Shown: positions 2,483-11,177 of the stretch, in pieces
How the letters are laid out: every line of letters begins with the position of its first letter
Numbering within the stretch: position 1 is the first letter of the stretch
Assembly: GCA_017396005.1 (NCBI GenBank)
Contig: JAFQNG010000001.1
Coordinates: forward strand, 1 to 33,232
Reading direction: 5' to 3'
Length of the DNA stretch: 33,232 nt
DNA from: Desulfovibrio sp.
GTDB lineage: Bacteria; Desulfobacterota; Desulfovibrionia; Desulfovibrionales; Desulfovibrionaceae
Program-made: the position numbers and the translations under genes
Notes under the pieces: model-generated
The model's database searches: none
The model's input: only the letters and a program-made list of their open reading frames with translations
Told to the model about the DNA's origin: nothing

Positions 2483-3346
2483 ATGTGCGGCACATCCCGC
2501 CTGGTGCTGGTGCTTGGCATGCACCGTAGCGGCACCAGCGCCATGGCCCGCAGCCTTCAATGTCTTGGTATTGACCTTGGGGAAGAGCTTATTGGTGCAC
2601 ACCCCTGCAACCCCAAAGGCTTTTTTGAAGATGCGACTGTTTATGCGTGCAACAGGGCCCTGCTCGCCATGCAGGGTCTTGTCTGGCACAGTTTGACTAG
2701 ACCTGATGCGGCATCCCTGAAACGACTGGCACAGGAAGAAACAGGCAGGCAGGCCTTGGAACTTTTGCACTCCAAAACAGCTGGCCGGCCTGTTCTTGGC
2801 CTGAAAGATCCACGTATGAGCCGTCTGCTGCCCTTCTGGCGTCCACTCATAGCTGCAGCAGGCTTGCGTGTACACATCATACTGGCCTTGCGCCATCCAG
2901 CAGGCGTAGCACACTCGCTGGCCCGACGGGACGGCATGACGGCAGAGCATAGCCATGCCCTCTGGTTGTGGTATACGCTGGAGGCGCTTGCGGGAAGTAC
3001 CGGTCTGCCCTGCCTGATTACAGATTATGAGCTGCTGCTGACACGGCCCGAATATGAAATCCTGCGTATAGGTACTTTTCTGAAGCTTACGCCTCACGCA
3101 AACAGCCTTGCAGAATTCTCACATGGTTTTCTAGATAAAACACTCTGTCACTATCAGGCAGCTCAGCATATGACGTATGCTGCCTCCCCCTGGGAAAATC
3201 TGGCCATGCTGCTCTATGATGCCCTGCGCCCCCTTGCGCGGCAGGAGGGCCCACTGGAGGTACAGACAGAAGCGCGCCTTGCAGCACTTAGCGACCGGCT
3301 GACCGCACAGGCCCAGCGCCTCTCCCTGCCTGCGGAGACTTTATGA
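2483..3346 (+). CDS. Sulfotransferase-like P-loop protein
   Basis: This 287-residue protein opens with a phosphate-binding loop, LVLVLGMHRSGTSAMARSL, which resembles the 5'-phosphosulfate (PAPS) loop of sulfotransferases. Further family-like blocks are NPKGFFED, LKDPRMSRLLPFW, and LALRHPAGVAHSLARRD (the 3'-phosphate-binding region). The likely role is transfer of sulfate from PAPS to a carbohydrate or another acceptor; the acceptor cannot be told from sequence. I chose the ATG at 2483, 2 nt after the preceding stop. The frame is open further upstream, but that would overlap the protease gene. No strong ribosome site is visible, so translational coupling is likely. The stop overlaps the next start as ATGA. 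Similar proteins in Desulfovibrio are usually left as uncharacterised sulfotransferase family members. Confidence 0.75.
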   Translation: MCGTSRLVLVLGMHRSGTSAMARSLQCLGIDLGEELIGAHPCNPKGFFEDATVYACNRALLAMQGLVWHSLTRPDAASLKRLAQEETGRQALELLHSKTAGRPVLGLKDPRMSRLLPFWRPLIAAAGLRVHIILALRHPAGVAHSLARRDGMTAEHSHALWLWYTLEALAGSTGLPCLITDYELLLTRPEYEILRIGTFLKLTPHANSLAEFSHGFLDKTLCHYQAAQHMTYAASPWENLAMLLYDALRPLARQEGPLEVQTEARLAALSDRLTAQAQRLSLPAETL

Positions 3347-4113
3347 ATGAGCATGCTCTGTCCGGACGTCTGGCTGCGCCCTCCTTTACTCTGCCCGGTA
3401 CTGTAGCCGAAAACGCCACATTTCTGAGCGGCAAAGTTGATGAGGTAGGCCTGTGTTTTTTCGAGTCTGACGCATGTATGACATACACACAGGACGATCT
3501 GCCTTCTTCTCTGGCAGATCTGCCCCTGCAGTGGCATGTACACCTGCCGGTAGACCTTCCATGGCCAGCTACAGGCCACGACACCCGTCAGGCTGCTATC
3601 ACGGCCTTTACCATCCTGCAGAAAGCAACCTTTCTGCATCCCCATCTGGCTGTACTGCACCCGCCAGAAGCGGATATCTCAAGGCAGCGCAGCCTGCTGT
3701 CCTCGTTTACATTCTACTGGCAGAGCCTGACCCAAAACAAAGGACCACAGCTGGCTCTTGAAAATGTTGGATATGCCGATGTAATCAGCCTTGGCTCAAG
3801 TTTTTTACAGGAGCATGGTATGGCTTTCTGTCTGGACGTTGGACATCTGCTGGGCTATGCTCAGAATACCCTTTTGCAAAGTGAACTTCCGGAACAGGCA
3901 GCGCTTGTGCACTGGAGCGCCCCCGGCAGGCAGGACGAGCATCTGCCGCTGGACAGCCTTACTCTACCCCAACGCTGTACGGCACAAAACCTCATGGCGC
4001 GACTGCCGTGTACGGCCATACATCTGGTCGAGATATTTTACTGGCAGGGCATCCCGCCCTCTCTGACGCTGCTGGATTGTCTGGCCCGCTCAGCCCTGCC
4101 TTGCCGAGGATAG
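3343..4113 (+). CDS. cbiR: CbiR-like cobamide-remodelling phosphodiesterase (AP-endonuclease/xylose-isomerase-type TIM barrel)
   Basis: This 256-residue protein has the look of the xylose isomerase-like TIM-barrel superfamily: LQWHVHLPVDLPW near residue 63, then ALENVGYADV, then FCLDVGHLLGYA, where the Glu, Asp and His would be metal ligands. The N-terminal pattern (a PxxTLPGTVAENATFL segment, then VDEVGLCFFE) resembles CbiR, which hydrolyses cobamides so that the lower ligand can be replaced. I rely on memory of the family for this, so the symbol is tentative; a generic sugar-isomerase-like protein is the alternative. A GGAG site lies just upstream of the ATG, which overlaps the previous stop by 4 nt. 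The next gene starts 4 nt downstream. Confidence 0.6.
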   Translation: MNEHALSGRLAAPSFTLPGTVAENATFLSGKVDEVGLCFFESDACMTYTQDDLPSSLADLPLQWHVHLPVDLPWPATGHDTRQAAITAFTILQKATFLHPHLAVLHPPEADISRQRSLLSSFTFYWQSLTQNKGPQLALENVGYADVISLGSSFLQEHGMAFCLDVGHLLGYAQNTLLQSELPEQAALVHWSAPGRQDEHLPLDSLTLPQRCTAQNLMARLPCTAIHLVEIFYWQGIPPSLTLLDCLARSALPCRG

Positions 4114-4117
4114 CGAT

Positions 4118-5131
4118 ATGGCCTTTCAGGCAGAACATGTACACCGTATGAAGCAATGGCGAAACAGTCTGAACAGAGACGAACGCTGGTGTGTGCTCAT
4201 CAGTGCTGACCCTGATGCCATGGCCTCGGCCCTAGCTCTCAAACGCCTTATGCATGGCAAGGTCCGTCAGGTAGATATCATGCGTATCAATGAAGTCACC
4301 CGACCGGATAATCTGGCCATGATACGTTACCTGCGCATTCCTGTTCGTACATGGCAGCCGGAAAAACTGACTCAATACCAGCATTTCGCCATGGTGGATT
4401 CCCAGCCCTGCCATAATCACGCCTTTGACGGCCTGACGTTCGCTTGTATCATCGACCATCATCCACAGACCGACCTGGGAACCAGCCTGACTAAGGATGG
4501 CCTCTGCGATATCAGGCCAAGCCTCGGTGCAACCAGCAGCATGATGGCTCGCTACCTGCAAGCACTGCGGATCAAGCCCGGTCCACTGCTGGCCACGGCA
4601 CTACTCTACGGTATCCGTACAGATACAGCAGCTTTTGCCCGTTCCGGCGGAGAAAAAGATCTGCGTGCCTATCAGTGGCTGTCGCAACAGGCCGATACTT
4701 CGCTGCTGCAGCGCATTATCCGCAGCGAGTATCTGCGTGCCTGGCTACCCATCTTCAGTCGCGCTTTCCGTAACCTGCGCGATTGCCGGGGCGGAGCGCT
4801 GGTCAACCTCAACGAAGTGGACAGCGCCGACCTGCTGGTAGCAATTGCCGATTTTTTCACCAAAGTGCACGGCCTGAAATGGATTGCTGTTTCCGGCGTA
4901 GTATCCAAAACCGTCATCGTCATCTTTCGCGGTGACGGAGGGCGCGACATAGGCCGTCTGGCCGATGCCTGTTTTTACGATGTAGGTACTGCCGGAGGCC
5001 ATCGCAGTATGGGGCGGGCAGAATTTCCCCTGACATCTGTACCTGCCAATGTCAAGGCGGGTGATTTCGTCTATCAACGCCTTCTGAGTCGCAAGTTGCG
5101 CCCAATTTCGGCCGCTGCTGTGCAGGAATAA
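4118..5131 (+). CDS. DHH/DHHA1 family phosphoesterase
   Basis: This 337-residue protein has the layout of an NrnA-type nanoRNase or bifunctional oligoribonuclease/pAp phosphatase. The metal-binding motifs appear in order: SADPDAMASAL (Asp31, Asp33), VDSQP at 93-97 and IDHHP at 112-116. Near the C-terminus is the DHHA1 signature, GTAGGHRSMGRAEFPL (GGH at 293-295). Motif I reads DPDA rather than the commoner NPDGDA. The likely activity is cleavage of very short RNAs or of a nucleotide phosphate; the exact substrate is not visible. An AGGA site precedes the ATG. It is the last gene of the packed protease/sulfotransferase/CbiR set, and the promoter of the aromatic operon lies just beyond its stop. 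Confidence 0.85.
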   Translation: MAFQAEHVHRMKQWRNSLNRDERWCVLISADPDAMASALALKRLMHGKVRQVDIMRINEVTRPDNLAMIRYLRIPVRTWQPEKLTQYQHFAMVDSQPCHNHAFDGLTFACIIDHHPQTDLGTSLTKDGLCDIRPSLGATSSMMARYLQALRIKPGPLLATALLYGIRTDTAAFARSGGEKDLRAYQWLSQQADTSLLQRIIRSEYLRAWLPIFSRAFRNLRDCRGGALVNLNEVDSADLLVAIADFFTKVHGLKWIAVSGVVSKTVIVIFRGDGGRDIGRLADACFYDVGTAGGHRSMGRAEFPLTSVPANVKAGDFVYQRLLSRKLRPISAAAVQE

Positions 5132-5147
5132 AAAATCTTTCCAGCGC

Positions 5148-5176
5148 TTGACATTGACTGTAGTCAAGGCTATGTA
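5148..5176 (+). promoter_or_regulatory. Probable sigma-70 promoter of the aromatic operon
   Basis: A perfect -35 box TTGACA (5148-5153) is followed after exactly 17 nt by TATGTA (5171-5176), a weak -10 within an AT-rich stretch. It lies 22 nt upstream of the leader ORF, so transcripts would carry that ORF and its terminator. The -35 element is convincing and the -10 is imperfect. Confidence 0.6.
5154..5167 (+). promoter_or_regulatory. Operator-like inverted repeat inside the promoter spacer
   Basis: TTGACT and AGTCAA form a perfect 6-bp inverted repeat with a 2-nt centre, lying wholly between the -35 and -10 boxes. A repressor bound here would block polymerase. It does not match the TyrR box or the TrpR operator as I know them, so any regulator is unknown. 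A 12-nt palindrome could also arise by chance. Confidence 0.3.
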
Positions 5177-5197
5177 TTTTTGTTAACGGAGTTTATC

Positions 5198-5299
5198 ATG
5201 CGTCAATCTATTTCTACTACACCTCTTCAGTACGCTTTTTCTTTTTGTATTTATTTTTTTGCGTACTTTAGTCAGGCCTGTGGTCAGGAGCTTGATTGA
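5198..5299 (+). CDS. Phe/Tyr-rich attenuator leader peptide
   Basis: This is a 33-codon ORF with a good ribosome site (GGAG at 5188-5191, 6 nt before the ATG). Codons 12-24 read YAFSFCIYFFAYF, so 8 of 13 residues are Phe or Tyr. That is the composition expected of a leader peptide that senses charged tRNA-Phe and tRNA-Tyr, as pheL does in enterobacteria. The ORF ends 24 nt before an intrinsic terminator stem and 118 nt before the first structural gene of an aromatic amino acid operon. The peptide itself probably has no function; its translation is the signal. Reading both Phe and Tyr codons fits an operon that holds both pheA and tyrA. Confidence 0.85.
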   Translation: MRQSISTTPLQYAFSFCIYFFAYFSQACGQELD

Positions 5300-5333
5300 C
5301 GTACAATGTCCGTAAGTTCCAAAGGCCGCAGGC
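5229..5333 (+). promoter_or_regulatory. Attenuator alternative pairings: protector and antiterminator
   Basis: Two alternative stems can be read by eye. AGTACGC (5229-5235) pairs perfectly with GCGTACT (5261-5267), and the loop is the Phe/Tyr codon run. CCTGTGGTC (5277-5285), just after those codons, pairs along its full length with GGCCGCAGG (5324-5332), the left arm of the terminator, with two G-U pairs; G5276-C5333 adds a tenth pair. This second stem would prevent the terminator from forming. A ribosome stalled on the early aromatic codons leaves 5277-5285 free (read-through). A ribosome that reaches the stop at 5297-5299 partly covers it (termination). The pairings are seen; the mechanism is inferred. 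Confidence 0.7.
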
Positions 5334-5360
5334 ATACCCCCTGCGGCCTTTTTTCGTTTT
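5321..5360 (+). terminator. Rho-independent terminator (attenuator) before the aromatic operon
   Basis: GGCCGCAGG (5324-5332) and CCTGCGGCC (5340-5348) form a perfect 9-bp GC-rich stem with a 7-nt loop. Three more A-T pairs (5321-5323 with 5349-5351) extend it, and it runs into TTTTTT and then TTTT. It lies between the leader ORF and the first structural gene, so it would end transcription before the operon unless it is prevented from forming. Confidence 0.92.
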
Positions 5361-5417
5361 AAGGCTACGGGGGAGCAGGGTAAAACATCAAGCGATACAC
5401 AAAATAAGGAGAGTTCC

Positions 5418-6215
5418 ATGTATCTCGGTAAAAATGTTCGCCTGGAACGCATCATCAACCGTAAAAACGGCCGCACCATCATCGTACCTATGGATCATGG
5501 TGTCACTCTGGGTGCAGTCGAAGGCCTCATCAACATGCGCGAGGCCGTTAACGACATGGCCGAAGGCGGAGCTGATGCTGTGCTCATGCACAAGGGGCTT
5601 ATTCGCTGCTCGCACCGCAGCGCAGGCAGGGATGTGGGCCTCATCGTCCATCTTTCTGCCTCTACTGCCCTTTCTCCCCATGGCAATACCAAGACCCTGG
5701 TAGGCACTGTGGAAGAAGGCATCAAACACGGTGCAGACTGTGTTTCTGTACATGTCAACCTAGGGGATGATAACGAAGGAAAGATGCTGGCAGACATGGG
5801 CAGAGTGTCAGAAGCTTGCGCCAACTGGCAGATGCCATTGCTGGCCATGGTCTATGCCCGTGGCCCACGCGTACAAAACAGCTATGATCCGGCCGTAGTC
5901 GCCCACTGCGCCCGTGTAGGTGTAGAACTGGGCGCTGACATCGTCAAGGTACCCTACACCGGTGATATGGACAGTTTTCACGAAGTGGTGAGCAGCTGTT
6001 GTGTGCCTGTGGTTATTGCCGGGGGAGAACGCATGGAATCTACTCTCCAAATATTGGAAATGGTCAGTGATTCCATCAAAGCCGGCGGGGCCGGTATCTC
6101 CGTAGGACGGAATGTTTTCCAGCACCCCAACCGCAGGAATCTGGTCAAAGCTCTGCGCGCCATAGTGCACGATGATGCTACTGTAGAACAGGCTCTGAAC
6201 ATAGTGGAGGAATAA
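5418..6215 (+). CDS. 2-amino-3,7-dideoxy-D-threo-hept-6-ulosonate (ADTH) synthase
   Basis: This 265-residue class I aldolase of the FbaB/DeoC group would carry out the first step of the archaeal-type shikimate entry: condensation of L-aspartate semialdehyde with a deoxyketohexose phosphate to give ADTH. The visible catalytic positions are PMDHG (Asp26), AMVYARGP (Tyr146) and DIVKVPYTG (Lys177, the Schiff-base lysine). IKAGGAGISVGRNVFQH is the C-terminal phosphate-binding part. Fructose-bisphosphate aldolase is the sequence-similar alternative, but the next gene is dehydroquinate synthase II, its usual partner. The start has a strong site (AAGGAG). No DAHP synthase or classical aroB is seen nearby. 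Expression should depend on the upstream attenuator. Confidence 0.88.
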   Translation: MYLGKNVRLERIINRKNGRTIIVPMDHGVTLGAVEGLINMREAVNDMAEGGADAVLMHKGLIRCSHRSAGRDVGLIVHLSASTALSPHGNTKTLVGTVEEGIKHGADCVSVHVNLGDDNEGKMLADMGRVSEACANWQMPLLAMVYARGPRVQNSYDPAVVAHCARVGVELGADIVKVPYTGDMDSFHEVVSSCCVPVVIAGGERMESTLQILEMVSDSIKAGGAGISVGRNVFQHPNRRNLVKALRAIVHDDATVEQALNIVEE

Positions 6216-7199
6216 ATGGCCCAGATCTATTTCTGCTGTTCTCCCTTTGATAAGGTGGAGGTCACCCTGGCGCTGGAATCAGGTGTGGATGGCGTCATCG
6301 TACCACGTGACCATGTGGAACAGGTGGCAGCGCTTTCTCGCTGCCCTGTTTGGGCATATGATGATCTGCACGTAATCAAACTTACATGCAAGGCCGATGA
6401 AGAGGAAGCCCTAGCACGCCTCAGACAGGGCGAGCGAGTAGTACTGGCGCGTGGCTGGGAGGTCATCCCCGTAGAAAATCTGCTGGCGCAGAGCGAGGCC
6501 GTTCTGGCAGAGGTCGGCAATCTGGAAGAAGCCCGCCTGGCCGCAGGCATACTGCAACGTGGTGTTGCGGGTATCGTTGTCCTGCCGGAGGCTATGGATG
6601 AGCTCAAAGGTATTGTTGCGCAATGCAAACTGGCACAGGAGCAGGAATGCCTCGTTCCCGGTGTCATCACCCGGGTGGAGCCTGTGGGCCTTGGGCATCG
6701 TGTCTGTGCCGACACTCTTTCTCTTCTGCAGCGAGGTCAGGGCATGCTGGTGGGCAACTCCAGTGCGTTCACCTTTCTGGTGCATGCCGAAACCGAGCAT
6801 AATGAATATGTGGCAGCGCGTCCCTTCCGTATTAATGCAGGAGCAGTACATGCCTATACACGCCTGCCACATGACAAGACTACCTATCTGGGTGAATTGC
6901 GCGCAGGGCAAGAGGTACTTATTGTAGATGCTGTCGGCAGGAGCTCTCTGGCTATTCTTGGCCGGGTCAAGATAGAAATCCGCCCCATGTTGCTTATCGA
7001 AGCCCGCGTAGAATGCAAGGACGGAGTAAAAACCGGAACAGTCTTCCTGCAGAACGCCGAAACCATTCGTCTTACTGCGCCGGACGGTACGCCGCTGAGT
7101 GTGGTAGGCATCAAGCCCGGCGATACAGTACTCTGCCGCATCGACGAAGCAGGCCGTCATTTCGGTATGCGTGTACGCGAAGACATACAGGAGGTCTAG
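6216..7199 (+). CDS. 3-dehydroquinate synthase II (archaeal type)
   Basis: This 327-residue protein belongs to the MJ1249-like family, which deaminates and cyclises ADTH to 3-dehydroquinate using NAD. It is unrelated to classical AroB. Family-like blocks are the N-terminal ESGVDGVIVPRDHVEQV, then GVITRVEPVGLGHRVCADT near the middle, then GMLVGNSSAFTFLVHAET and RPFRINAGAVHAYTRLP. The ATG directly abuts the TAA of the ADTH synthase gene, with GGAGG at 6206-6210 lying inside that gene, so the two are translationally linked. Its length is close to the lower end of the family. It supplies dehydroquinate to later shikimate steps; aroD, aroE, aroK and aroC are not in this window. Confidence 0.92.
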   Translation: MAQIYFCCSPFDKVEVTLALESGVDGVIVPRDHVEQVAALSRCPVWAYDDLHVIKLTCKADEEEALARLRQGERVVLARGWEVIPVENLLAQSEAVLAEVGNLEEARLAAGILQRGVAGIVVLPEAMDELKGIVAQCKLAQEQECLVPGVITRVEPVGLGHRVCADTLSLLQRGQGMLVGNSSAFTFLVHAETEHNEYVAARPFRINAGAVHAYTRLPHDKTTYLGELRAGQEVLIVDAVGRSSLAILGRVKIEIRPMLLIEARVECKDGVKTGTVFLQNAETIRLTAPDGTPLSVVGIKPGDTVLCRIDEAGRHFGMRVREDIQEV

Positions 7200-7201
7200 G
7201 C

Positions 7202-8431
7202 ATGAACCTTGGAGACAGGGAAGACAAGAGCACACAAACTGTGAGCTCTGAAGCCGGGACAGCACGCCTGACAGCCATCCGTAAAGAAATTGATGCTGTA
7301 GATCAGGAACTTTTGCGTCTTTTCAACCATCGAGCTGAGTTGAGCCGCGAAGTAGGCCGCATCAAGGCCAATGTACCCGGTATCATTTTCAAGCCTCTAC
7401 GAGAACGTGAAGTGCTGGACAATCTGGCTGCCCACAATCCCGGACCACTGCCAGAAGAACATCTGCGAGCCATCTGGCGAGAAATACTCTCTTCCTCCCG
7501 CGCCATGCAGCGTCCGCAAAGTGTAGCCTATCTCGGGCCTGAAGGTACGTTTTCCTACTTCACCGGCCTGGAATACCTGGGGCATGCAGCCACCTTTCAC
7601 GCATGTCGAGACATAGCCCAGATATTCGAGGAGGTGACGCTGGGACAGTGTGAGCTGGGTGTAGTACCGCTGGAAAACTCCCTGCAGGGCACTGTAGGAG
7701 TGAGCTTTGACCTTTTTCTCAAGCATGATGTCTTTATACAGGCAGAGCTTTTCTCACGCATCTCGCATTGCCTTTTGAGCAATGCGCCTAACATGGCCAC
7801 CATACGCAGGGTCTATTCGCACCCTCAACCTCTGGCCCAGTGCGGCGTCTGGCTGCGCGCCCATCTGCCCAATGCAGTCCCCATTCCCGTGGAATCAACG
7901 GCCGCAGCTGCTCGACAAGCCATGGAGCAGCCCGACGCGGCGGCCATTGGTCATCACAAACTAGCCGATCTGATGAGTATGAGTATCCTGGCCCGACATA
8001 TTGAGGACGAGCCAGGTAACTGGACGCGCTTCGTCATCATCGGCCCGCACACGACAGGCACAGCACAAAACGGAGCACTGCCCCGCCCCACGCCCGGCAA
8101 GTACAACGGCGCTGACAAGACCTCCATGCTCTTCACCCTGCCGGACAAATCCGGTGCACTGGCGCTGGTACTGGACCTGCTGGCCCGTCACAACATTAAC
8201 ATGCGTAAGCTGGAATCACGCCCCATGCGCGGTCAGTGCTGGAAATACGTCTTCTTTGCCGATGTGGAGAGTAATCTGGAAGATGCGGCACACGCTCCCC
8301 TGCTGGACGAACTGCGCCACGCCTGTACCAGCTTCCGTATACTGGGCAGCTACCCTACAGGCCCACAACTTGACCGCATGAATATTGATGACCCCGAAGA
8401 AGGTATTGAAAACCATGAGCGCCACTGCTGA
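7202..8431 (+). CDS. pheA: Bifunctional chorismate mutase / prephenate dehydratase
   Basis: This 409-residue enzyme converts chorismate to prephenate and then to phenylpyruvate. Three domains are visible. An AroQ-type chorismate mutase spans roughly residues 20-100 (LTAIRKEIDAVDQELLRLF, then a conserved Arg/Lys helix). The prephenate dehydratase spans roughly 105-285 (AYLGPEGTFSY, VVPLENSLQGTVG, ESTAAAARQA, and NWTRFVIIG with its TRF motif). A C-terminal ACT domain carries GALALV and LESRPM, the Phe-binding signatures, so feedback inhibition by phenylalanine is expected. I placed the start at 7202, 2 nt after the preceding stop and just after a perfect AGGAGGT. The longer open frame would run into DHQ synthase. 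The 3' end overlaps aroA by 17 nt. Confidence 0.95.
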   Translation: MNLGDREDKSTQTVSSEAGTARLTAIRKEIDAVDQELLRLFNHRAELSREVGRIKANVPGIIFKPLREREVLDNLAAHNPGPLPEEHLRAIWREILSSSRAMQRPQSVAYLGPEGTFSYFTGLEYLGHAATFHACRDIAQIFEEVTLGQCELGVVPLENSLQGTVGVSFDLFLKHDVFIQAELFSRISHCLLSNAPNMATIRRVYSHPQPLAQCGVWLRAHLPNAVPIPVESTAAAARQAMEQPDAAAIGHHKLADLMSMSILARHIEDEPGNWTRFVIIGPHTTGTAQNGALPRPTPGKYNGADKTSMLFTLPDKSGALALVLDLLARHNINMRKLESRPMRGQCWKYVFFADVESNLEDAAHAPLLDELRHACTSFRILGSYPTGPQLDRMNIDDPEEGIENHERHC

Positions 8432-9830
8432 ACAGGTCCTGACGGTCACGGCCCCGGCCTCCAAATCCCTTTCACACCGTTACTGCATCGGTGCAGCCCT
8501 AGCCAGGGGCCAGTCCACCCTGCGCCATATACTGAACAGTGCCGACCTTGCTTGCACACGAACTATCCTTGAGGCTGTGGGCGTGCGATTCACTCCCCTG
8601 CCTGAAGAAGACTCCTGGCAGGTAGAAGGGATTGGTCAGGCACCGCAGGGTGGACAGGGCAAAGCCCTTGTCTGCAATGTAGGCGAATCCGGCACAACCT
8701 GTCGCCTGCTCACTGCCGTACTGGCTGCAGGACAGGGCCTCTTTCATATATATGGTGAAGGACGCATGCATGAACGCCCTTTGGATGACCTCTGCAGGGC
8801 CCTTACCGGTCTGGGGGCAGGCATTGTCTATGAAAAAAAGCTCCACTGTCCTCCCCTGCTTTTACAGGCAGGAGGCCTCAATCCCCATATGGTTGACGGA
8901 GTATCCTGTATAGGTATGGATTATTCCAGCCAGTTTTTTTCCGGCCTGCTGCTGGCCGCACCGCTGGCTTCTGCCCCGCTTACTATTGAACTTGGGGGCA
9001 CCAAGGCCGTCTCTTGGCCATATGTCGGCCTGACACTGCAGTGTCTGGAAGATTTCGGCATCAGCTTCTCTGTGGAAAGCCGCCACAAAATCCGTGATAC
9101 GAACAGTCCCTGGCAGGTCCTGAGCCCAACAGAATGGCGCAGTCTGGACGATGCACAGCCCGGCTGCCTGCGAGTGCGCATCACCCCCGGTCCCTATCGG
9201 TCAGGTAATTTCTGTGTGGAAGGGGACTGGTCCGGTGCTTCCTATTTTCTGTCTGCCGGAGCTCTGGGGCAACGACCAGTGAAAGTTTGTGGTCTGCGCG
9301 CTGACACCCTGCAGGGCGACAGAGTCATGCTGGACATACTGGAGCGTATGGGTGCACATTTTGAGCTGGAAAACGACACTGTTACGGTCTTCCCTTCCAC
9401 GCTGCATGGTGTTAGCCTAGATATGGGGGCCTGCCCTGACCTCGTGCCCACAGTTGCAGTACTAGCCTCCTTTGCTACCGGTTCCACCCGTATCAGCAAT
9501 GTGGCACACCTGCGTATCAAGGAATCCGACCGCATCAATGCGCCAGCCTGTGAACTGGCTAAGCTGGGGGTCATGATTGATCAGCTTTCTGACGGCATGC
9601 TGATCAACGGTACCGGTGGTCTGGTAGGGCATGAACACAGTAGATTGCATACGCCACGCCTACCAGCGGGAGTCATGCTCTCAACCCATAATGATCACCG
9701 TATGGCCATGTCCCTGGCCCTGCTCGAGTTGCGTGATCCGAGCCTGCATGTGCGCGACCGTCTGGATGACCCTTCTGTGGTGCGCAAATCCTTCCCGCAG
9801 TTCTGGGATGTCTGGAGCCATCTGCTATGA
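8415..9830 (+). CDS. aroA: 3-phosphoshikimate 1-carboxyvinyltransferase (EPSP synthase)
   Basis: This 471-residue enzyme joins phosphoenolpyruvate to shikimate-3-phosphate. Visible motifs are the N-terminal PASKSLSHRYCIGAALA (Lys17, Arg22), GESGTTCRLLTAVLAAG (the PEP-binding loop; many relatives read GNAGT or GNSGT), DYSSQFFSGLLLAAPLA, GDWSGASYFLSAGAL, and the late NDHRMAMSLALLELR. It is about 40 residues longer than typical AroA, the extra length falling in the middle of the protein. I chose the ATG at 8415 because the product then begins a few residues before the conserved strand. An in-frame ATG at 8385 would add 10 residues and lengthen the overlap with pheA. It overlaps tyrA by 4 nt. Confidence 0.95.
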   Translation: MSATAEQVLTVTAPASKSLSHRYCIGAALARGQSTLRHILNSADLACTRTILEAVGVRFTPLPEEDSWQVEGIGQAPQGGQGKALVCNVGESGTTCRLLTAVLAAGQGLFHIYGEGRMHERPLDDLCRALTGLGAGIVYEKKLHCPPLLLQAGGLNPHMVDGVSCIGMDYSSQFFSGLLLAAPLASAPLTIELGGTKAVSWPYVGLTLQCLEDFGISFSVESRHKIRDTNSPWQVLSPTEWRSLDDAQPGCLRVRITPGPYRSGNFCVEGDWSGASYFLSAGALGQRPVKVCGLRADTLQGDRVMLDILERMGAHFELENDTVTVFPSTLHGVSLDMGACPDLVPTVAVLASFATGSTRISNVAHLRIKESDRINAPACELAKLGVMIDQLSDGMLINGTGGLVGHEHSRLHTPRLPAGVMLSTHNDHRMAMSLALLELRDPSLHVRDRLDDPSVVRKSFPQFWDVWSHLL

Positions 9831-10603
9831 GTGCTGATTTCTGTGGTATTCTACCCGTCAAGACACTCATCATAGGCGCACAGGGACGCATGGGCTCCAT
9901 GCTACTCAAACGCGGCCGCAGGATCGGTCTTGAAATGGAGGGCCTGGATCAACCCCTGACGACAATGCGTATCAGTCAGGTATGTTCCGCAACAGACCTC
10001 GCGCTTTTCTGTGTACCTGCTGCCGTCTTGCCTGATGTACTGGCCAAAGTCTGCCCCTATCTGCCGAGCACAGCTGTGCTGGCCGACATCACTTCGGTCA
10101 AGGAAGGACCTCTGCGCCAGATGGCCCGTGCGTGGTCGGGGCCGGTTGTGGGTACACACCCCTTATTTGGTCCGAACCCCGAACATGGGGCTGATCTGCC
10201 TGTAGCCATCATACCTGGAGCACATGCAGAGGCAGGTCATCTGGCACTGGTTGAAAATTTTTTCATCAGGCTTGGCTGCCGCATCTTCACCTGTACAGCC
10301 GCACAGCATGATCAGGCCATGGCCCGTATACAGAGCATGAACTTCATCACTAACCTAGCTTATTTCGCCATGCTTGCTCAGCAAAAAGAACTACTGCCCT
10401 TCCTGACGCCCTCCTTCCGCCGCCGCCAGCAGGCGGCACAAAAGATGCTGACCGAAGACGCCCAGCTGTTCAGTGGACTTTTTGACGCTAACCCCTACTG
10501 CCATGAGGCTGTACATCAATACCGCCAGATGCTTAATCTAGCCGCTGCTGGAGATATAGACCTGCTCTGCCACCGTGCGCAATGGTGGTGGGAGCGGGAC
10601 TAA
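9827..10603 (+). CDS. tyrA: Prephenate dehydrogenase (TyrA family)
   Basis: This 258-residue protein is a single-domain TyrA, which oxidatively decarboxylates prephenate to 4-hydroxyphenylpyruvate on the way to tyrosine. It has an N-terminal dinucleotide-binding loop (LIIGAQGRMGSMLL), LADITSVKEGPL, and VVGTHPLFGPN with the catalytic-type His. The later helix contains HDQAMARIQSMNF. It lacks any added chorismate mutase or ACT domain. GAQGRMG differs slightly from the usual GxGxxG but is common in this family. The ATG overlaps the aroA stop by 4 nt, so translation is coupled. Its presence in the same transcript as pheA fits a leader peptide that reads both Phe and Tyr codons. Confidence 0.9.
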   Translation: MSADFCGILPVKTLIIGAQGRMGSMLLKRGRRIGLEMEGLDQPLTTMRISQVCSATDLALFCVPAAVLPDVLAKVCPYLPSTAVLADITSVKEGPLRQMARAWSGPVVGTHPLFGPNPEHGADLPVAIIPGAHAEAGHLALVENFFIRLGCRIFTCTAAQHDQAMARIQSMNFITNLAYFAMLAQQKELLPFLTPSFRRRQQAAQKMLTEDAQLFSGLFDANPYCHEAVHQYRQMLNLAAAGDIDLLCHRAQWWWERD

Positions 10604-10682: not shown

Positions 10683-11177
10683 ATGGAAAAGTACTTTGCC
10701 GCAGCACCGACTGATGCGCCCATGGATCGTGTTTATATTGCATGTATTACCTTAAGTGCTTTCAAGGGCCGCCGCCATGTGGAAGCACATCTTTTCCGGT
10801 ATGGAGCCGATGCAGCAGAGCTGGCCGCTCTTCTTGATAAAGATCTTGTTGGTCCTCCAGACCCCGATGTACCACAGGAAATCCTGCAGGGGGCTACTCG
10901 CGAGGCCGCCTTACGCAGCATTCTTGAAGCCTTCACCCTGGAAGAATGCAAGGCTCTTGTGGCCTACCTTGAACAGCGCTATGCCGATCATATCGAAAAG
11001 GTCACTGTCTGCCCCTTGGAAATGCCCGTCCCCCTAGGTGTAGCCCCGTTGAGCAATATCCCTGAAGGCAAGAGTACAGGATTCATACGTTTCGACAAGG
11101 CTCCGGATTACTCTCTGCCCTTTACCGTATGGGCCTTTTATGATCTAGATATCCACGAGCCGCTTATGACTGAATAG
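10683..11177 (+). CDS. Conserved-looking protein of unknown function
   Basis: I do not recognise this 164-residue protein. It is soluble and mixed-charge, with no signal peptide or membrane segment. The middle (roughly 45-100) looks helical and rich in Ala, Glu and Leu, and the C-terminal half contains CPLEMPVPLGVAPLSNIPEG and ends in an acidic stretch. It lies 79 nt after tyrA. That gap is AT-rich and could hold a promoter, but no clear -35/-10 pair stands out, so it may be the last gene of the aromatic operon. An AGAGG lies about 10 nt before the ATG. Its last 40 nt overlap the 3' end of aat on the other strand. Codon use looks like that of its neighbours, so I take it as real. Confidence 0.7.
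   Translation: MEKYFAAAPTDAPMDRVYIACITLSAFKGRRHVEAHLFRYGADAAELAALLDKDLVGPPDPDVPQEILQGATREAALRSILEAFTLEECKALVAYLEQRYADHIEKVTVCPLEMPVPLGVAPLSNIPEGKSTGFIRFDKAPDYSLPFTVWAFYDLDIHEPLMTE

Follow-up and report, generated by a model that had tools for sequence, protein, structure and literature searches.

Here we analyzed a window of 33,232 nucleotides from Desulfovibrio sp. (contig JAFQNG010000001.1), and its positions 5148-5360 are, as judged with high confidence from the sequence and its relatives, a ribosome-mediated transcription attenuator of the aromatic operon that follows. A Phe/Tyr leader and a switchable terminator very probably set the output of the aromatic amino-acid pathway in this Desulfovibrio. 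The region has a leader ORF with codons of the pathway products, a terminator before the first gene, and an antiterminator which involves the leader and is mutually exclusive with the terminator. The features are collected in Table 1.

Table 1. Features of the leader region and of the operon in the window
Feature	Position	Strand	Details
Leader promoter	5148..5176	+	TTGACA 5148-5153, spacer 17, weak -10 TATGTA 5171-5176
Leader Shine-Dalgarno GGAG	5188..5191	+	
Leader peptide ORF (MRQSISTTPLQYAFSFCIYFFAYFSQACGQELD), 33 codons	5198..5299	+	stop codon 5297-5299
Sensing run, 8 Phe/Tyr in 13 codons, no Trp	5231..5269	+	
Region 2, antiterminator 5′ strand (GCCTGTGGTC), within leader ORF	5276..5285	+	
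Antiterminator extension GGAGCTT, pairs with AAGTTCC 5314-5320	5287..5293	+	window fold 5276-5335
Region 3, antiterminator 3′ strand (GGCCGCAGGC), overlaps terminator 5′ arm	5324..5333	+	
Intrinsic terminator (regions 3:4), 12 pairs, T-rich tail to 5360	5321..5351	+	
ADTH synthase (2-amino-3,7-dideoxy-D-threo-hept-6-ulosonate synthase)	5418..6215	+	TIGR01949 386 bits (cut-off 299)
3-dehydroquinate (DHQ) synthase II	6216..7199	+	NF002628 541 bits (cut-off 508); PF01959
pheA, chorismate mutase/prephenate dehydratase, start provisional	7238..8431	+	NF008865 235 (cut-off 219); TIGR01807 above cut-off
aroA, EPSP synthase, start provisional	8436..9830	+	TIGR01356 349 bits (cut-off 287)
tyrA-like prephenate dehydrogenase	9827..10603	+	PF02153 52 bits (26.5); NCBIfam matches below cut-off

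A preliminary description of this DNA had proposed a perfect TTGACA, a ribosome site, a 33-codon ORF with 8 Phe/Tyr codons in 13 and a strong intrinsic terminator ahead of the genes of ADTH synthase, DHQ synthase II, pheA, aroA and tyrA. All of these are present, the genes by family matches (tyrA by Pfam), but the -10 element is poor with 3 of 6 positions; the promoter scan of the window reported no site on the + strand. The gene upstream of the leader lies on the same strand and ends at 5131, and read-through from it into the operon is possible. Directly after the -35 there is a palindrome, TTGACTGTAGTCAA at 5154-5167, which was considered as an operator and rejected; it is probably due to chance because the closest relative (L002) is without it.

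The attenuator would set the flow into the whole pathway, since ADTH synthase is the first gene and neither DAHP synthase nor AroB was found. In the window assembly, which is 85.6% complete, the sole PF00793 match is KdsA and AroB (PF01761) has zero matches, and the route through ADTH and DHQ synthase II is the only pathway entry found there. Elsewhere in the window, a 164-aa ORF between tyrA and aat (10683-11177) has no NCBIfam or Pfam match, and positions 3343-4113 encode a CbiR-like cobamide remodelling phosphodiesterase above the NCBIfam cut-off.

The Phe/Tyr run on its own is only fair evidence, because 8 Phe/Tyr codons in 13 appear in any ORF in 2 of 1000 dinucleotide shuffles of 5132-5417, and it is conservation which decides. 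For this purpose 110 loci around ADTH synthase were collected, one search contributing its best 80 of 348, and 93 unique upstream regions were left after dropping 16 duplicates and one too-short stretch. Ten of these were excluded before counting: seven with no leader at that copy (L034, L082, L096, L097, L101, L106, L107), of which L082 and L107 are second copies behind a copy that has a leader, and three lone paralogs with Phe-rich leaders (L072, L076, L100). An aromatic-rich leader and a terminator are present in all the remaining 83 regions. Removal of near-duplicates and of one row with N gave an alignment of 62 rows, which includes the window and three lone copies (L078, L080, L093). Such an alignment was the check named in the preliminary description, and in it the codon run and the terminator are conserved in most relatives and the antiterminator covaries with leader codons.

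It is hardly credible that the region is the ordinary terminator of the gene ending at 5131 next to a chance ORF in T-rich DNA, with the operon promoter located downstream of 5360. T-rich DNA favours Phe codons and the shuffles do sometimes give such a run, but aromatic codons are specific to the frame over the 62 loci (in the 17 codons that precede region 2 they make up 45.5% in frame, against 9.2% and 16.3% in the other frames), both synonymous codons are used for Phe (TTT 217, TTC 65) as well as for Tyr (TAT 101, TAC 79), and the leader codons covary with the terminator arm as described below. A Shine-Dalgarno match of at least 4 nt is found in 40 of the 62 loci, of 3 nt in 18 and none in 4. 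Of the 62 loci, 48 have an exact TTGACA no more than 70 nt before the leader start, compared with 1.7% of shuffles; its distance to the start is 49-66 nt in 33 loci (the window's genus and some others), 35-38 nt in 13, and 31 and 25 nt in one locus each. With a spacing of 35-38 nt transcription would begin on the ATG or close to it, and the leader mRNA would probably be leaderless; a spacing of 37-38 nt is seen in L085, L087, L089-L092, L103-L105, L108 and L109.

The antiterminator, which was not in the preliminary description, uses the 5′ arm of the terminator. With G-U pairs counted, GCCTGTGGTC, which spans Ala-Cys-Gly-Gln in the leader, can pair along its full length with GGCCGCAGGC. The fold of 5276-5335, that is before arm 4 exists, has -32.5 kcal/mol with the antiterminator stem outermost and the extension formed, and the window terminator folded alone has -22.0 kcal/mol. 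Over the 62 loci the mean is -31.8 kcal/mol for the antiterminator against -24.0 for the terminator hairpin, and the antiterminator is lower in 60 of 62. The leader:arm duplex has a mean of 10.4 nt in the 83 loci versus 6.6 in shuffles and 6.0 in the preceding 48 nt, and in 3 of the 83 it is just 6 nt. A 1:2 protector hairpin appears in the window fold, and the consensus of 27 close relatives retains only 4 pairs; no long conserved hairpin of this kind was found in them.

In the aligned sequences the antiterminator is paired in 96.9% of 619 pair cells (slid control 34-42%) and the terminator in 90.0% of 740 (slid control 27-61%). Both sides are changed in 6 antiterminator cells, a count which 0 of 500 shuffles reach, and the covariation score of 0.187 is matched by 1 of 500; these changes fall in just 1 of the 10 pairs, a number of pairs reached by 389 of 500 shuffles, and 159 of 500 shuffles have at least as many further pair types. 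In the terminator, both-side changes are present in 7 of 12 pairs and 0 of 500 shuffles reach this. At one pivot column arm 3 pairs with the leader codon in 60 of 62 loci and with arm 4 in 16. A leader Cys codon (T) stands opposite A in 50 loci and G in 4, a leader Arg (C) opposite G in 4 and a leader Ser (A) opposite T in 2, the exceptions being one Ser with G and one gap. In 31 of the 62 loci an A.G mismatch lies within the terminator, with the leader codon and arm 3 still matching.

The same column bears upon the idea that the attenuator works as described and that its peptide or terminated leader RNA acts in trans as well, like the trp leader of Sinorhizobium in the available portion of PMC7298713. 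The motif ACG recurs in 42 of the 62 leaders and ACGREL in 16, but Arg or Ser takes the place of Cys in loci whose paired arm has changed too, which is a sign of RNA pairing and not of peptide function; we consider an added trans role quite improbable.

An RNA that binds a metabolite or a tRNA (riboswitch or T-box), with an incidental ORF, would likewise use terminator and antiterminator alternatives, but this explanation receives almost no weight from us. Scans of the window and of 20 related loci gave no Rfam match at the gathering threshold, on which ground a known riboswitch or Rfam leader family was rejected, and the T-box model had no match at gathering in the window, nor at E<=10 in 5130-5420. 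The five Rfam matches at E<=10 in 5130-5420 (RF02632 with 21.5 of 108 bits, RF04312 with 21.2 of 59, RF02057 twice, and RF02086) are all far below threshold, and the loop between the two antiterminator arms varies from 35 to 58 nt.

For the ribosome-mediated attenuator, the following course is proposed. RNA polymerase would start just upstream of 5198 and a ribosome would follow it, translating the leader. When charged tRNA-Phe or tRNA-Tyr is scarce the ribosome would stall in the sensing run and leave region 2 free to pair with region 3, and the antiterminator so formed would block the terminator and allow the operon to be transcribed. When both charged tRNAs are plentiful the ribosome would reach the stop codon and, with the usual ribosome footprint, would partly cover region 2 and its extension; regions 3 and 4 would then form the terminator and transcription would end near 5355. 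Read-through may in this way respond to starvation. The preliminary description had both end products, Phe and Tyr, as the input, and this fits the window genome; most of the aligned leaders (56 of 62) have Trp as well, and all three aromatic amino acids are therefore probably the usual input.

The extent of the element was surveyed with R1, a covariance model built from the 62 alignment rows. Among genomes of the order Desulfovibrionales, R1 matches 237 of 247 at E<=0.01, in 47 of 51 genera, with the best E below 1e-7 in 233 of the 247, and some of the scanned genomes gave training rows. Seven of the ten genomes without a match were examined for ADTH synthase; three have none and one has only an aldolase of 28% identity. 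G214 and G215, also without a match, have an aromatic leader and after it, on visual inspection, a hairpin with different arms and a T run, and G234 has the ADTH synthase gene with no such leader. Besides the leader region itself, R1 has 15 matches at E<=10 in the window genome, all with E of 0.006 or worse; one of them is the same terminator on the opposite strand, and L167 and L170, which were read, show no such leader.

In a sample of the phylum 26 of 296 genomes match R1 at E<=1e-6, and 13 of these are outside the order, where genes without a family call were judged by eye from the translation. L247 and L248 precede ADTH synthase, DHQ synthase II and a pheA-like gene, and L243 and L253 precede ADTH synthase. 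Five lie before DAHP synthase, namely L244, L246, L250 and L255 by NCBIfam (L250 and L255 below cut-off) and L254 by likeness. L251 is near pheA-like genes, and L245, L249 and L252 are without a clear target. A predicted aromatic attenuator spans an order, with weaker matches elsewhere in the phylum before ADTH and DAHP synthases.

The placing of a Phe/Tyr attenuator before the ADTH operon stands, and the element is not limited to that operon. Among 40 order-level R1 hits chosen for diversity, 36 are directly before ADTH synthase and 4 before a sodium:solute symporter with a small accessory protein (the symporter families were tested for L204). Thereafter 36 genomes, mostly picked for several matches, gave 89 matches at E<=1e-4; 19 were known already, 10 were left out (G093, one of G120, and eight partial or opposite-strand) and 60 were added, some being earlier loci under other names. 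The targets of the 60, with the number in which the leader:arm duplex reaches p<=0.05 against shuffles, are ADTH with DHQ synthase II (22 loci, 16 with the duplex), ADTH without it (18, 11; two have no terminator by script), the symporter (11, 8), phenylacetate-CoA ligase (4, 3; TIGR02155 621-641 bits, below the cut-off of 646), TRAP binding protein (2, 2), trpE (1, 0) and no assigned target (2, 0).

Leader types were tallied over 169 different ADTH proteins, with six rows too near a contig end left out. Where ADTH is together with DHQ synthase II the leaders are mixed in 124 of 128 (109 Phe/Tyr/Trp and 15 Phe/Tyr), one is mainly Phe and 3 have none. Where ADTH is without DHQ synthase II (n=35), 11 leaders are Phe-only, 5 mainly Phe, 2 Tyr-only, 2 mainly Tyr, 4 Phe/Tyr and 7 mixed, and 4 copies have none; the 7 mixed include first copies of tandem pairs (L082, L107, L306), L090 with DHQ synthase further off, and L101 with a chance ORF. 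Phe-only or mainly Phe leaders thus occur in 1 of 125 with DHQ synthase II versus 16 of 31 without it (Fisher p 1.7e-12, relatedness ignored). These counts bear on whether Phe alone is the main input of the attenuator, with the Tyr codons neutral. The window run has 5 Phe and 3 Tyr codons, pheA is within the operon and Phe-only leaders exist on other genes, but both Phe and Tyr fall within the best 13-codon stretch of 61 of the 62 aligned leaders, and the operon leaders are mixed, unlike those of many lone copies; we regard a Phe-only input as unlikely.

The other targets have codon runs of their own. Symporter leaders are Phe-dominated in 14 of 15 and mixed in 1, and the symporter behind a Phe leader is a predicted phenylalanine importer. 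The Phe-dominated leaders before a symporter are those of L204 (with the small accessory protein), L222, L224, L226, L262, L271, L272, L275, L280, L285, L291, L295, L300 and L307. The four ligase leaders (L265, L293, L301, L312) have a Phe run, no Tyr or Trp, and terminators, and the predicted role of this ligase is salvage of phenylacetate to phenylalanine. The leaders of the TRAP loci (L304, L314) and of trpE (L315) are Trp-rich, and the TRAP transporter is a predicted Trp importer.

A tree of ADTH synthase with 85 of the 169 proteins unites 12 Phe-type lone copies in one clade (99/95), and the Phe-type pairs L093/L228, L072/L076 and L269/L309 are outside it, the last in an unresolved fork beside the clade. 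Six copies with Tyr runs, ranging from Tyr-only to Phe/Tyr, form another clade (99/94); these lone paralogs, with leaders such as SYYYYGY, are L256, L257, L279, L308, L311 and L317. By well-supported branches the Phe-only label has at least 3 changes on the tree, so leader specialisation probably arose more than once. The likeness of the arms over all these elements, whichever gene they precede, could be partly convergence as against common descent. Apart from these, two divergent ADTH copies (59-61% identity; L160 in G022 and L161 in G010) lie near a trpE-like match, have no aromatic leader and perhaps belong to another pathway.

Taken from sequence comparison, we moderately favour the view that in Desulfovibrionales much of aromatic regulation goes via one attenuator design which is retargeted by exchange of the codon run. 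Mixed Phe/Tyr/Trp runs would serve the pathway operon, Phe-only, Tyr-rich or Trp-containing runs the lone ADTH isozymes, Phe runs the symporter (predicted Phe importer) and the phenylacetate-CoA ligase (predicted salvage), and Trp runs trpE and the TRAP transporter (predicted Trp importer). If this is true, the leader codons would carry an isozyme specificity like that of AroF/G/H, and it would have evolved on more than one occasion. The codon run may also be used as a label which predicts the amino acid served by a transporter or isozyme, and this would give unnamed genes of sulfate reducers functions that can be tested.

Tryptophan codons were followed separately. In the 13 long loci with trpE after tyrA, Trp is present in 13 of 13 leaders, and in those without trpE there (L206, L208, L211, L212, L218) it is present in 3 of 5. 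All four loci with a separate trpE that were examined in the window's genus (L111-L114) have a WWW leader before that gene. No trpE, trpD or trpA match was found in the window genome (G000, 85.6% complete) and its closest relative (G032, 91%), which are possible tryptophan auxotrophs, and the leaders of both are without a Trp codon. Joint loss of the Trp codon and of Trp synthesis was rejected as a rule: G033 and G052 keep the codon without trp matches, and G021, G026, G030, G031 and G074 have trp matches without the codon. With G000, G033 and G052 at 86, 74 and 89% completeness, a link between the two losses is suggestive at most.

The preliminary description knew of no leader-peptide attenuation for the ADTH/DHQ-synthase-II route. 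In the open-access literature searched, no description of a leader peptide for an aromatic ADTH operon was found, but a putative attenuator of D. vulgaris had already been listed. Table 7 of PMC1173090 (2005) gives a database-predicted putative attenuator before the D. vulgaris aroA'-aroB'-aroQ-pheA-aroF-tyrA-[trp] supraoperon, which has the same operon type and gene order as here; in the available part of that source it comes without leader peptide, codon run or comparison of relatives, and the words 'leader' and 'codon' do not occur in the main text. The accessible portions of PMC2965389, PMC3766115, PMC5343134 and PMC1262725 do not mention an attenuator of the aromatic operon. Ten aro-trp genes of D. 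hydrothermalis are among the pressure-changed genes in PMC4162548, the available text of which does not mention attenuation, and the ncRNA prediction in O. alaskensis (PMC11124144) does not name the attenuator element in its accessible part. The mechanism is known in kind; the targets, the phylum and the isozyme-specific leaders appear new within the open-access literature searched.

The enterobacterial pheA attenuator (pheL) has a Phe-rich leader peptide with a terminator and an antiterminator before pheA. The present element resembles it in the aromatic-codon leader peptide, the terminator and the antiterminator, and differs in that its run combines Phe with Tyr, and in most relatives with Trp too, that the leader precedes the first step of the ADTH route, that region 2 is inside the leader ORF and that the phylum is another one. 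Attenuation of pheA in gamma-proteobacteria is covered in the available part of PMC5343134. In the trp leader attenuators, including the leaderless trpL of Sinorhizobium (PMC7298713, in its accessible portion), a leader ORF senses charged tRNA as proposed here, and the leaderless form has a probable likeness in the 13 of 62 loci with the close TTGACA; the present element has no Rfam match, concerns other amino acids and genes, and in the window has a Shine-Dalgarno. The nearest parallel to the lone ADTH copies is given by the E. coli isozymes AroF, AroG and AroH, which receive feedback by Tyr, Phe and Trp, as the available part of PMC5343134 describes. Paralogous first-step enzymes are tuned to different end products in E. 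coli by feedback inhibition and repressors, and here, as predicted, by the codon run in the leader of each copy.
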